From Thermococcus onnurineus NA1 (lineage in GTDB: Archaea; Methanobacteriota_B; Thermococci; Thermococcales; Thermococcaceae): a DNA stretch of 64,000 nt. The stretch lies in NCBI RefSeq assembly GCF_000018365.1, contig NC_011529.1, positions 62,001 through 126,000 of the forward strand, given 5' to 3'. The notes below the pieces were generated by a model. The model did not search any database. It saw only the letters and a program-made list of their open reading frames with translations, and was not told the origin of the DNA. A program made the translations under genes and the position numbers. Below, in pieces: positions 40,152-56,961 of the stretch; the first letter of the stretch is position 1; every line of letters starts with the position of its first letter.

Positions 40152-40877
40152 TTAAATGTGGATCCTTTCTCGGGATGTTAGTACCGCAGGAGTTTTCATC
40201 TGAAGTACCACCGGTCTGAATTCTCTGGATAGTCCTTTTAGCACTGCAATATTCTCAACAAACTCATTTTCCTTTAGTATACCTTGTGTGAATATTACAT
40301 AATCACTAATGCTGACCATCCAAGAGTGGAGCTCTTTGGGTACAACGTCCCTATTGACAATAAGAATATCCCAAAACCAATATCCATTTTCCACCAGTTT
40401 TTCACCAGCAAACAAACGTGTTTGGAATAGTTTCTTCACAGTGGACGCCTCAAACCGCTCGTATAATGTGTCTAAAGTTACAAACGCATGAACTACCTTC
40501 CTTTCTTTTAAATTGTATTTTTTAATTATCTGCCTTTTGACTTCGACATATTTCGAAATGAAGGTTCCCCCATCGACATTGCCCACCTTGTAAACGAAAT
40601 CGTAGTGAGTTTCTCCTTCAAAAACATTTATTATCGCTAGATTGCCATTTTTACCCTCCTGAATCACATCTAATCCCGCGGCCTCTATTCTTGCACAGAA
40701 CTTTCTAAAAGGAACTGCAACATTGGTCAAAAGTGCAAAATTCCCTTTCTCTATCTCTTCTTTCACAAGTCTAACTCCGATTTTCCAACCTAGAGAGTAC
40801 TGGTCATATGATAATAGCAAAATCCCTCCAGGGGTGATTTCTCTTAAATATTCCCTTACAGTTTTTACCTTGGTCAT
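40152..40877 (-). CDS. DUF257-like protein, RecA/KaiC-related
   Basis: The 241-residue product resembles the DUF257 family, known mainly from Thermococcales: N-terminal TVREYLREITPGGILLLSYD followed by an alpha/beta core (LAIINVFEGETHYDFVYKVG; HAFVTLDTLYERFE). It looks like a degenerate RecA/KaiC-type domain without a P-loop. ATG 40,877 lies six bases after GGTGAT. The gene and flanks are clearly richer in A+T than their neighbours, and it lies directly behind tRNA-Arg, which may point to acquisition. Function unknown. Confidence 0.7.
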   Translation of the reverse strand: MTKVKTVREYLREITPGGILLLSYDQYSLGWKIGVRLVKEEIEKGNFALLTNVAVPFRKFCARIEAAGLDVIQEGKNGNLAIINVFEGETHYDFVYKVGNVDGGTFISKYVEVKRQIIKKYNLKERKVVHAFVTLDTLYERFEASTVKKLFQTRLFAGEKLVENGYWFWDILIVNRDVVPKELHSWMVSISDYVIFTQGILKENEFVENIAVLKGLSREFRPVVLQMKTPAVLTSRERIHI

Positions 40878-41105
40878 ATTGGAATCACCATTATTTATCT
40901 TTCGAATATTTTGATTATAAGACTTGTGGCATATTTTAGCATAATCAAAACAATGAGTTTCCAAATATTAGATTATTGATATTAAATGTTACAAACAATG
41001 CTATTTTTTGGATGCTTCATGAAATTGTGAAAATTGGGCAAAAATTCAAAGAATTCCGTGTGACGCAGGTTAATTCCACAGAAAATTAAAGGTCAAACAG
41101 AACAG
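40878..41105. other. AT-rich spacer without gene
   Basis: The 228 bases upstream of the DUF257-like gene and downstream of the convergent-read uridine phosphorylase are AT-rich (for example TATTAGATTATTGATATTAAATG). I see only possible promoter sequence for the DUF257-like gene and a T-rich part that may end udp transcription on the minus strand. Confidence 0.4.
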
Positions 41106-49951: not shown

Positions 49952-50276
49952 GGAAAACACCGAAAATGGTTAAAGCTCTTTTCTTTAAGGCGTTTTCGGA
50001 GAAAAAGTTTTATAAGTTAGGGTCGAGTTTATAATAGGTCGAAATCCGCTAGGTGTCTTTTTGCTTTTCCAGTAAAGCTCTATGAGGATGCATTTTTGTT
50101 TGTGTGTATAATCATGCAACTCCTTTACTCCGACTCTATTTCTCTCAGAAAGTCCAAATTTAAGTGGTATTAATTAAATTACTTTGCTAATTTTTCTATT
50201 TACTTTTACTAATAATAAAACTTATAAAGGAGTTCGCTCTAAAAATGAGTGCAAAACTACAGAGGAAGTGAACCAT
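49952..50276. promoter_or_regulatory. AT-rich divergent spacer with promoters
   Basis: The 325 bases carry a minus-strand TATA (CTTATAAAAC, about 50,006-50,016) for the methyltransferase and a plus-strand TATA (AAACTTATAAAGG, about 50,217-50,229) for the secreted protein at 50,277. Between them the DNA is strongly AT-rich with no frame having a ribosome binding site and no RNA gene that I can support. Confidence 0.5.
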
Positions 50277-50702
50277 ATGAAGTGGAAGCTGTTGTTTGCA
50301 GTCCTACTGGGACTGCTGATGGTCGGAACGACTGTGGGGAGTGCTCTGTCCGCTAAAGTAACGGGATCTTGCTTCGACTCAGTTGACATTGCTAGTTATG
50401 AAAACCAGAGATCGATAGCAAAGTTACATGACTTTCTCAATAACAATCTAAGCGTGCCTGTGAGTTATCTGGATCTTCTTACGATTCAGAGAATAACACC
50501 TGAAGACATCAAACAAGTCAAGGAACTAAAAACTCTGGGGTTAGCAACCTCAGAATCTAGCATACTAAGATTTATAAAAAAGATACAATTGATGGAGTTT
50601 GTAGCCTCAAGGAGTGGGGGCAATCCGGAAGTTATCATAAAACTAGCCCAATTCTTAGGAGATCGTGTAGTTCCAATTAAAAACCTCCTATCCAGCCAAT
50701 GA
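50277..50702 (+). CDS. Secreted hypothetical protein, 141 residues
   Basis: The product begins with a signal peptide (MKWKLLFAVLLGLLMVGTTV, cut probably after SALSA) and continues with a helical part containing one cysteine. No family recognised. It has a TATA box and GGAAGTG binding site. The stop overlaps the ATG of the next gene (ATGA). It is unclear whether the two are separate coupled genes or one gene split by a frameshift, since the next product lacks a signal peptide yet looks like an extracellular domain. Confidence 0.55.
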   Translation: MKWKLLFAVLLGLLMVGTTVGSALSAKVTGSCFDSVDIASYENQRSIAKLHDFLNNNLSVPVSYLDLLTIQRITPEDIKQVKELKTLGLATSESSILRFIKKIQLMEFVASRSGGNPEVIIKLAQFLGDRVVPIKNLLSSQ

Positions 50703-51202
50703 GCGGAGATTACAACGATTTACTGTTGGATGTTGGAGGTGCTCACTTTTACCAAAACGATCCGGAGATGCCGTATTACGTTATGATATGGGGAAATTAT
50801 TTATGGAAAGAACTCGAGGGTACTCTTTATAGAGGATCTGATGATGTAGTCTACTACAAATGGGACGAGGCGGATGATTTAATATTGTTTAAAGACGTGT
50901 ATGCCTCCCCAGAAATGAGAAGAGCAGGATCCGATCTCGGAACAATAGCATATTATACACCAGATAGTCTCCACTCTGGATACGTAAGACTATATTTTGT
51001 ACCAAAAACTCCATCAGTGTCTGGAAGATGGACAAGAGTGTCAATGACCTATGTTCATACCTACGGAATAGGGGGAGATCTTAGCGTTACTGTTGGATAT
51101 AAGTATGTTAGTGTTAGTTATCAAACACATTTGGGAGATGAATGGGAAAAATCTGATTACGTATCGTTTAAAATAGACCCAGACGGAGTTCTAAAGGGGT
51201 GA
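50699..51202 (+). CDS. Hypothetical beta-rich protein, 167 residues
   Basis: The product MSGDYNDLLLDVGGAHFYQN is rich in aromatic residues and alternates in a beta pattern (YVRLYFVPKT, LSVTVGYKYVSVSYQTH), without signal peptide, cysteine or known motif. It begins in the ATGA overlap with the upstream secreted protein. If a frameshift joins them, the mature secreted protein would be about 280 residues with an N-terminal helical and a C-terminal beta domain. AT-rich codon use differs from the neighbours. Confidence 0.5.
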   Translation: MSGDYNDLLLDVGGAHFYQNDPEMPYYVMIWGNYLWKELEGTLYRGSDDVVYYKWDEADDLILFKDVYASPEMRRAGSDLGTIAYYTPDSLHSGYVRLYFVPKTPSVSGRWTRVSMTYVHTYGIGGDLSVTVGYKYVSVSYQTHLGDEWEKSDYVSFKIDPDGVLKG

Positions 51203-54583: not shown

Positions 54584-54864
54584 ACCTCCTCAAAGTTTTT
54601 CCAAAAGAGCTTGAACGGTAGTCCAGAATAGGGGGGTTATCGGGGAAATCAGTTATCGATGCGATTTGAACGGTGGAGAAGACACTCCCCCCTCATAGGC
54701 ATCGCACCGAATAACGGTTTTGAGTATTTAAGGTTTTTGGACATTCAAAAGCGGACAGACTTTTTGTCCACTTTCAGCTCGGCATGGTAAATTATTTAAG
54801 CAAGTTGTAGCAAAGTATCCGCAGATTTTAGTTTCCCATCTAAACTTGTTTGGGTGATTGAGAT
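54584..54864. promoter_or_regulatory. Divergent spacer: structured leuS leader and promoters
   Basis: A minus-strand TATA (CTTAAATAC, 54,724-54,732) serves leuS. Between it and leuS a nested stem is visible: GTTAT/ATAAC (54,652-54,656 with 54,711-54,715), CGATGC/GCATCG (54,657-54,662 with 54,699-54,704) and an inner GGAG/CTCC. The expected transcript start, about 25 bases from the TATA box, falls near 54,703, so the outer arm may lie just outside the message. For the plus strand, AATTATTTAA at about 54,789-54,799 is the promoter of the NYN gene. Confidence 0.5.
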
Positions 54865-56955
54865 ATGCTGGGGAATCCTGAGTTAGTTTATGTTGATGAC
54901 ATTGAGGGTGGTCCCGTCATCGTGGTCAGAAAGTATGAGGATTATAAGTCCCTCTTAAATAAATACAAACCGGACGTTATGTATGCATCTGACAGATATT
55001 TCTACTTCTGGGACGGCAACAAGTTTTATGCACTCAGAAGGAGAGGATACAAGACGTTTAGGGATTTGGAGCTGTCGGTGAAGCTCGGGTTTTGGGATGC
55101 ATCGGAAAATCTAAAATCTATTGAGTCCATTGGGGAGAAAGTTGATATCGACTATGGGAAGATAATAATACGCGGATATAACAAAGAGGGGAAACAGGTG
55201 ACTCTGAAGTTTAACTCCGAAGGTGAATTGTTCTATTATGCAATGGACAGCGGATTTGAAGATTTTAATGAATTCGTGGACGCCCTGAAGCTTGGTTTCC
55301 TTGATGGTGAATCATTCAGAAAAGCCTTATCGGGAGGATTCGCAGGCGCATCCGAATATTTTGATGCAATTGAGGGAGGGTTCACTAGATTTGATGAGTA
55401 CGACGAAGCTAGGCGGCTTAATATTCCCTCCAAGTGGGAATACGACCTATTTAAGGAACTCAGCCTGATAAAGGAAAAGTACTCTTTGAAAACGATAGAA
55501 GAGGCTCATCTCATTAAAATTATATGCGACATGCCTGTTGGTGAGAGGGCTTCACTTCTGTCTCTTTGGAATCGTCTGCATTCTGAAAGGACAAAGGTAT
55601 TGAGGAGATACAACATATGGAATCGGAATACGAACTGGTATGGAGAACCGGAAATCCTGATCAGCCCAAAATCACTTGAGGAGTATCTGGTCTCGTCGAA
55701 GATTATACGGAAGTTTGGAAAGTACGATGAGAAAGCCAAGTTGTTTGTGCGTATTCTGCCGGGAGGATTTTTAAGTGAAGACGAATACAAAGATGCAACT
55801 TCTAGAGGGTACAGGAATAGGCGTGAATACTTAGATGCCCAGAAAAGAGGTTTCATTGGTTCCCTTAATAAGTTACGGTCTATCGAGCCCTTCACCATAT
55901 TTGAAACAACCTACAAAGTTTCAGGAACTCCCAATTTAAACCTTGGTGAAGAGTGCAAGATAAAATCGGGGAGAATTGGTGAGTGGAAGAAGCTGACGCT
56001 TAAGGATCTAGGGATCTCAACCGAGGCTGAGCTTTATAGATATGCCGTTGATAACGGCTTTGAGTCATTTGGAGAGTTTTTTGAGTCCCTTAAACTTGGA
56101 ACCCTGAAACGGGAGGAGTACCTTGCTGCTAAGAAGGGCAAGTTCAAGAGCATACTGGAGTTCTGGATTTCCAAAGGATTGGGTCATTCCAGGAGACAGG
56201 AATTGATACGGGAGATTTATGCTGATTATGAGGAGCTTAAGAAACTCAAGGAAACCTACAAACTTAGGACCTACGGAGATGCCTTGGTCTTTAGGTTGCT
56301 CCGTACGCTCCAGCAGAAGAAACGGAAGATTGACTTGGACAGCCTGTGGAGATGGCTAAAGGAGTGCGAGTACACATATTTTAGCAGGGAATCACTGTGG
56401 TATCACCTTGGTAGAAAAAGCAGGAATTACAGAACCTTCACCAGTAAGGAAGAGCTGGAAAAATACCTCATCACTCTGTTAAAGAGGCACGATGAACTCG
56501 GAACCTACGATCCTGAGAGCAAGTTGTTCGTACCGAAACTGCCCCCTGTCATTGTTGATGGAAGCAACGTGGCATGGGAAGGCAGGGATAAAAGGGGCGG
56601 GGAAAGGGCATTAGCAAAGAACATTGAACTCGTCGTCGAGAAGCTGAAGGAACTTGGGTACTCAGAAATATACGTCTTTGTGGATGCCAGTCTAAAGTAT
56701 CAAGTGGAGGACAGGGGATTACTGGAGAAGCTGATTGTATCCAAGATTGTGAAGTTAATGCCTGCCGAAGTGCAGGCAGATGAGTACATAATAAAATACG
56801 CCCTTGACATTGACGCGTATATAATCTCCAACGATAGATACAAAGAATGGAGAAAGAAGAACCCGGACCTCGAAGAGTTCATCAAAACACATAGAGTTAC
56901 TTTCACGATACACAAGGGAATCGTGCACTTTGACGGAAAGATTGAGGGTTTATGA
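54865..56955 (+). CDS. NYN-domain ribonuclease-like protein with two large tandem repeats
   Basis: The 696-residue protein ends with a NYN/Zc3h12a-type nuclease domain (about residues 560-696): PPVIVDGSNVAWEG with Asp565 and Asn568, VFVDAS, Asp639 in QADEYIIKYALDIDAY, and Asp657 in ISNDRY form the acidic metal site of such RNases. Before it stand two related modules of about 190 residues (about 100-300 and 365-558). Each has LYxYAxDxGFExFxEF..LKxG, a LKEKYxLKT helix, an SLWxxL helix, SKEELEKYL-type helix and KYDExAKLFVxxLP. No signal peptide. Likely an RNA-cutting protein whose repeats bind RNA or a partner; possible role in RNA decay or defence. I know no named function. Confidence 0.75.
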   Translation: MLGNPELVYVDDIEGGPVIVVRKYEDYKSLLNKYKPDVMYASDRYFYFWDGNKFYALRRRGYKTFRDLELSVKLGFWDASENLKSIESIGEKVDIDYGKIIIRGYNKEGKQVTLKFNSEGELFYYAMDSGFEDFNEFVDALKLGFLDGESFRKALSGGFAGASEYFDAIEGGFTRFDEYDEARRLNIPSKWEYDLFKELSLIKEKYSLKTIEEAHLIKIICDMPVGERASLLSLWNRLHSERTKVLRRYNIWNRNTNWYGEPEILISPKSLEEYLVSSKIIRKFGKYDEKAKLFVRILPGGFLSEDEYKDATSRGYRNRREYLDAQKRGFIGSLNKLRSIEPFTIFETTYKVSGTPNLNLGEECKIKSGRIGEWKKLTLKDLGISTEAELYRYAVDNGFESFGEFFESLKLGTLKREEYLAAKKGKFKSILEFWISKGLGHSRRQELIREIYADYEELKKLKETYKLRTYGDALVFRLLRTLQQKKRKIDLDSLWRWLKECEYTYFSRESLWYHLGRKSRNYRTFTSKEELEKYLITLLKRHDELGTYDPESKLFVPKLPPVIVDGSNVAWEGRDKRGGERALAKNIELVVEKLKELGYSEIYVFVDASLKYQVEDRGLLEKLIVSKIVKLMPAEVQADEYIIKYALDIDAYIISNDRYKEWRKKNPDLEEFIKTHRVTFTIHKGIVHFDGKIEGL

Positions 56956-56961
56956 GGGAGC

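Follow-up and report, generated by a model that had tools for sequence, protein, structure and literature searches.

The gene at positions 54865 to 56955 of the window, that is, of the whole 64,000-nucleotide stretch of Thermococcus onnurineus NA1 DNA that was analyzed, appears on balance to be an accessory chromosomal gene for an endoribonuclease whose nucleic-acid-recognition modules are duplicated. We documented an internal duplication and a 14-residue repeat in the protein, a set of catalytic residues, a patchy distribution, exchange of alleles, and a conserved promoter motif. By sequence comparison, the catalytic part is of a kind already known; for the module family and for the build with two modules, the libraries searched gave no matching family. 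Full-length homologs were found in 3 of 61 Thermococcus genomes, namely, that of the window (G000), G025 (92% identity), and G035 (68% identity). The features are as follows.

54865..56955, + strand: whole coding sequence, 696 amino acids, a single-gene accessory cassette; G025 and G035 carry it at this site too
54788..54800, + strand: predicted TATA box, TAAATTATTTAAG, common to all three alleles
54853..54858, + strand: Shine-Dalgarno motif GGTGAT, identical in G025 and GGTGGT in G035
54865..55161, + strand: N-terminal domain, residues 1 to 99, from alignments; common to the methanogen homologs; model confidence low to moderate
55162..55764, + strand: module A, residues 100 to 300, from self-alignment and profile
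55219..55428, + strand: five acidic 14-residue GF helix repeats of module A (pI 4.1; motifs at residues 123, 137, 151, 165, and 179), from the repeat score; pLDDT of ~95
55429..55764, + strand: basic winged-helix-like half of module A, residues 189 to 300 (pI 9.5), from the model; fold tentative, Z up to 6.3
55765..55884, + strand: GF repeats with motifs at residues 294, 308, and 322; they begin the second unit of the duplication and align with the methanogen GF repeats
55957..56538, + strand: module B, residues 365 to 558, degenerate GF repeats and basic half (pI 9.3), from self-alignment, profile, and model
56539..56955, + strand: NYN endoribonuclease domain (PF11977), residues 559 to 696, from profile, phmmer, Foldseek, and VIA
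56557..56559, + strand: codon of D565 (DGSN motif), from alignments
56779..56781, + strand: codon of D639 (AD motif), from alignments
56833..56835, + strand: codon of D657 (SND motif), from alignments

The promoter and Shine-Dalgarno motifs appear to be the gene's own, as the earlier note had supposed of the promoter. The GGTGAT motif lies 6 nucleotides upstream of the ATG, and TAAATTATTTAAG is retained in the divergent allele, in which the flanking upstream DNA is only 32 to 47% identical. The gene had also been described as more AT-rich than its neighbors, and its GC content is indeed 43.6%, against 54.9% for leuS, 54.5% for pepQ, and 60.5% for the next gene. The dN/dS values of 0.08 to 0.18 show purifying selection, which indicates that the protein is functional.

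In the C-terminal domain, the PF11977 profile (Zc3h12a/Regnase-type NYN) matched residues 560 to 684 with an E value of 5.6e-21 (75.3 bits against a cutoff of 23), and the closest PDB sequences by phmmer were ZC3H12B, ZC3H12C, ZC3H12A, and KHNYN (lowest E values, 5.4e-10 with the whole protein and 2.5e-11 with the domain). The domain model gave a Foldseek E value of 1.2e-7 to ZC3H12C/Regnase-1 and VIA Z scores of 16 to 17 on ZC3H12C and Regnase-1 (rmsd of 2.2 over 135 to 137 residues), with Z scores of 9 to 14 on PRORP1/2 and the human PRORP metallonuclease. Of the four acidic positions of Regnase-1, one, the first D of the YDD motif, corresponds to A638 here. The conserved aspartates of ZC3H12B/C (DxSN, AD/DD, and SND) have their aligned counterparts in D565, D639, and D657, which all three Thermococcus alleles and unrelated PF11977 proteins from archaea retain; the complete NYN domain with its acidic residues, as first read from the sequence, is thus present. 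Between the window genome and G035, the NYN domain is 81% identical and the modules are 65 to 67% identical. In a CRISPR-associated NYN protein, the substitution D13A, at the position of D565, abolishes activity (PMC11346440). Given the homology and the catalytic residues, it is likely that the product has RNase activity.

The region ahead of the nuclease consists largely of two modules (residues ~100 to 300 and ~360 to 560). Aligning one with the other gives a BLOSUM62 local score of 202 across ~190 residues, whereas 500 shuffles gave a mean of 37.2 (standard deviation, 6.1) and a maximum of 65; the internal duplication, which the earlier note had reported as two ~190-residue tandem copies, is therefore real. 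When the six modules of the three Thermococcus proteins were combined into a profile, it recovered both copies in every one of these proteins. Within the modules runs a strict repeat of 14-residue helices, which the earlier note did not mention; it follows approximately the pattern [EF]Y..A...GF... and yields a lag-14 self-score of 51 for residues 119 to 190, compared with a maximum of 18 in 1,000 shuffles. Residues 294 to 335 also score in this test (p 0.001). In the second module region, GF motifs start at residues 391, 405, 419, and 433, and the repeat of module B has decayed below significance in this test.

As modeled, each module combines 14-residue GF repeats of one helix each, arrayed in series, with a beta element and with a C-terminal half that is basic and winged-helix-like. 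Structure prediction had been proposed in the earlier note as a check. In module A, AlphaFold2, run on shallow input alignments, placed one short helix every 14 residues with a pLDDT of ~95; the basic half that follows has the order H-H-E-H-H-E-E in both module A (pI 9.5) and module B (pI 9.3). These halves rank beside the wHTH proteins Fur, MarR, TrmBL2, and Egalitarian with VIA Z scores of 5 to 6.3, values in a range (Z under 8) that can reflect a common arrangement, and the resemblance to a winged helix is suggestive only. Foldseek searches of PDB and BFVD gave no match for module A at an E value of ≤0.001, nor any structural match for the GF-repeat half; the VIA comparisons for module A cover residues 187 to 300. 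A WH_Egal Pfam match was set aside as weak, below cutoff, and located inside the NYN domain. OST-HTH (PF12872) had no Pfam match and was absent among the VIA rows, although the model is winged-helix-like. Since the winged-helix match is weak and the GF-repeat half is without a structural match, RNA binding by the modules is something that we infer. From the basic halves and the analogy to PRORP, MARF1, and Regnase, it is reasonably probable that the modules are nucleic-acid-recognition parts. None of Pfam, NCBIfam, PHROGs, and PADLOC contains a match to the module family. In the literature searched, no description of the family or of the two-module build was found, in line with the earlier statement that no characterized protein with this build was known. 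The module family is undescribed and is probably one that binds nucleic acids.

Searching with a profile of the module alone, which had likewise been suggested, together with a look at partner domains, found the family only in the 3 of 61 Thermococcus species and in 12 of 36 Methanococcales genomes, mainly of the genus Methanocaldococcus. The methanogen homologs share the N-terminal domain and a single module at about 30% identity, and the partner is again a C-terminal NYN fold (BLASTP E value of 2e-8), in which D565 is retained and D639 and D657 are replaced. The SND motif has become SNA in Methanocaldococcus and TNE in two Methanococcaceae, and all told nine Methanocaldococcus and both Methanococcaceae proteins lack equivalents of D639 and D657, with their modules well conserved. 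The earlier note had made its reading depend on conservation of the acidic residues in homologs; this holds for Thermococcus and for further PF11977 proteins of archaea, but the Methanococcales proteins that carry the module have lost two of the three residues. One Methanococcaceae protein (G388, L044:3503-5099) has a frame break within the NYN domain, which again points to decay of the nuclease in methanogens, and in the module homolog of G398 the NYN part was not detected. Because the methanogen proteins have lost D639 and D657, the constant feature of the family is the module and not the catalytic site, and the function of the module need not depend on cleavage, given that the NYN fold to which it is joined in Methanococcales lacks two of the three catalytic aspartates. 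The family connects two archaeal lineages, with an attached nuclease that looks alive in Thermococcus and dead in the methanogens.

In Methanocaldococcus, the module gene overlaps a PF01909 nucleotidyltransferase gene in an operon-like arrangement. We dropped the nucleotidyltransferase as a partner because its gene is in 36 of 36 Methanococcales and the module protein is in 12 of 36, with no homolog found in the window's genome. At one locus (L061:8631-12914), a gene for an RtcB-like RNA ligase, apparently with two inteins, adjoins the nucleotidyltransferase gene that comes after that of the module protein. The closest archaeal NYN domains with an intact D-D-D set are those of G050/G057 (246 amino acids), whose N-terminal part reads as an OB domain, and a stand-alone PF11977 protein of G059 (L017:6754-8984), with a nucleotide-cyclase-like gene directly after it. 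These two families are listed together in one gene cluster (PMC11915815). Beyond the module family, a search of 396 archaeal genomes for the GF repeat gave a seemingly genuine match in G341 (L046:3474-4442), a 323-amino-acid protein in an open frame of 327, with 14-residue GF repeats but without NYN (E value of 8e-8 to the repeat profile) and a C-terminal hydrophobic segment. Other matches look like chance, those in G309 and G120 being oxidoreductase-like and those in G195 and G152 coiled coil or low complexity.

The gene occupies the gap between leuS and pepQ (window positions 54584 to 56961), a variable cargo site across Thermococcus. Among 40 congeners in which the gap was measured, it is empty in 12 (168 to 257 bp) and cut by a contig end in 1; the remainder hold other cargo, for example, amidohydrolase, glycogen-debranching-like, MgtE, DUF257, DUF835, beta-propeller, and type IIG restriction-modification (L097) proteins. 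The cargo is mostly metabolic or unknown, and one of the ten cargo proteins tested was a type IIG restriction enzyme; with such mixed cargo we rejected the description of the site as a defense island. In all three genomes, the gene is flanked by leuS and pepQ, the latter an Xaa-Pro-peptidase-like gene; in the window, leuS is divergent and pepQ convergent and 6 bp away. The gap contains no other open reading frame of at least 80 amino acids in the two relatives, and no small adjacent antitoxin gene was seen at the locus among open reading frames of at least 80 amino acids.

The flanking genes and the gene itself tell different histories. Both leuS and pepQ group G025 with G035 (91.8% and 90.9% nucleotide identity), whereas residues 1 to 535 of the gene group the window genome with G025 (96.1%). 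Informative sites supporting G000+G025, G000+G035, and G025+G035 number 84, 114, and 252 in leuS; 489, 29, and 24 in residues 1 to 535; and 30, 43, and 236 in pepQ. Because the groupings conflict and switch near 54,740 and just past the stop codon, the gene and its promoter were swapped between lineages as a cassette. Synonymous divergence between the window genome and G025 is 0.22 in the gene, below the 0.71 of leuS and the 2.02 of pepQ, and the G035 allele shows saturated divergence from the other two. Residues ~536 to 634 are about equally divergent among all three alleles (76 to 78%), and we read them as an internal patch with a different history. On these comparisons, the gene is a rare, horizontally exchanged accessory archaeal gene. 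A mobile-element origin was rejected, as searches of phage, plasmid, and viral-contig collections found no match. Elsewhere in the window, two overlapping open reading frames (172 and 167 amino acids; positions 50184 to 51202; 38.6% GC) lie beside the 3' end of leuS without a Pfam match and are possibly a second accessory insertion, and a 270-amino-acid open reading frame on the minus strand (40152 to 40964) lies in a 39.6% GC stretch, also without a Pfam match.

In the reading that we favor, the C-terminal NYN domain would be the catalytic part, hydrolyzing RNA in a metal-dependent manner through D565, D639, and D657. The two tandem modules would bind RNA, or RNA with protein, and position the nuclease on its substrate, a role comparable to that of the PPR repeats in PRORP and the OST-HTH/LOTUS domains in MARF1-type nucleases. 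The one-gene cassette with its own promoter would spread by recombination in the conserved leuS and pepQ flanks. A role against foreign genetic elements, as opposed to housekeeping RNA processing, is plausibly compatible with the patchy, exchanged distribution, and we propose it tentatively, at less than even confidence. The earlier suggestion of an accessory RNA-targeting or defense nuclease is supported as to the accessory nature of the gene (3 of 61 species, a variable site), but the defense part gained nothing from PADLOC or PHROGs or from the general cargo site. The PADLOC models gave no match at an E value of ≤1, PHROGs gave no match to the protein, and no defense genes adjoin the gene.

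A more specific alternative, possible although doubtful, is a single-gene nuclease against mobile elements (defense or dormancy), whose modules would recognize RNA or protein from a virus or plasmid and thereby unleash RNA cleavage by NYN, with allele exchange as the trace of an arms race. It would account for the presence in only 3 of 61 species, the exchange of whole cassettes with saturated divergence from the third allele, the AT-rich gene with its own promoter, and the type IIG restriction enzyme at the same site in another species, but not readily for the missing PADLOC, PHROGs, and defense-neighbor signals, the largely metabolic or unknown cargo, the failure to find homologs in phage, plasmid, and viral collections, or selection that is purifying and not diversifying. 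Equally open to doubt is a nonimmune factor comparable to PRORP or MARF1 that would act redundantly in RNA processing or mRNA decay, on tRNA, rRNA, or particular transcripts. The structural nearness of the NYN domain to the PRORP metallonuclease (Z of 9 to 14), the general build of a nuclease with RNA-binding repeats, and the operon-like overlap with a nucleotidyltransferase in methanogens, with RtcB next in one, are consistent with it; against it, the gene is absent from 58 of 61 congeners, and therefore serves no essential processing step, the catalytic residues are lost in methanogens, and the nucleotidyltransferase link fails the co-occurrence test (36/36 versus 12/36). That the module is the functional core, as a binding, scaffolding, or regulatory protein, with the nuclease secondary or being lost and an active version kept in Thermococcus, is improbable. 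In its favor are the nine Methanocaldococcus and two Methanococcaceae proteins without D639 and D657, one of them with an NYN frame break, and their well-conserved modules; against it, conservation of the NYN domain in Thermococcus equals or exceeds that of the modules (81% versus 65 to 67%, G000 to G035), with the catalytic aspartates intact in three alleles.

A further reading, which we regard as unlikely, is that one archaeal gene makes up a whole system of immunity or dormancy aimed at RNA. A new class of recognition module, with 14-residue repeats and a winged helix, would steer a Regnase-type nuclease, alleles would be swapped between species as whole cassettes, and the nuclease-dead, single-module methanogen relatives would serve as binders or regulators. 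Some Thermococcales are genetically tractable; by the distribution seen in this analysis, T. kodakarensis lacks the gene.

Comparison with known systems places the protein nearest to the ZC3H12/Regnase NYN-PIN group (PF11977), including KHNYN, which shares the NYN fold and catalytic aspartates and is the best match in sequence and structure. Regnase is an immune RNase of humans. Unlike those proteins, the archaeal one lacks a KH domain and a CCCH zinc finger (Pfam gave no zinc-finger match at an E value of ≤1, and residues 559 to 696 contain no cysteine), and its nuclease is C-terminal, behind two undescribed modules. PRORP likewise has a helical-repeat part ahead of an NYN-type nuclease, but its repeats are of ~35 residues rather than 14, no PPR repeat matched in Pfam at an E value of ≤1, and there is no evident zinc-binding Cys/His pattern here, with 3 cysteines in the whole protein. 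MARF1/Limkain b1 and bacterial NYN(DUF88)-OST-HTH proteins (PMC2848206) also join an NYN-superfamily nuclease to single or duplicated winged-helix nucleic-acid-binding units, although their nuclease is of the LK/DUF88 and not the PF11977 type, the domain order of the bacterial proteins is reversed, and a GF helix array is not described there. The Bacteroides fragilis CRISPR-associated NYN ribonuclease (PMC11346440) has a D-D-D site, but its gene belongs to a type III CRISPR system and its nuclease is not preceded by two recognition-type modules; here, leuS and the Xaa-Pro-peptidase-like pepQ flank the gene, and cas genes are not immediate neighbors in any of the three genomes. The archaeal OB-NYN (G050/G057) and stand-alone NYN (G059) proteins share PF11977 and an intact D-D-D set, but with another N-terminal part or none and without the modules. 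The protein would give archaea a counterpart of the eukaryotic modular RNA-targeting Regnase, MARF1, and PRORP enzymes.
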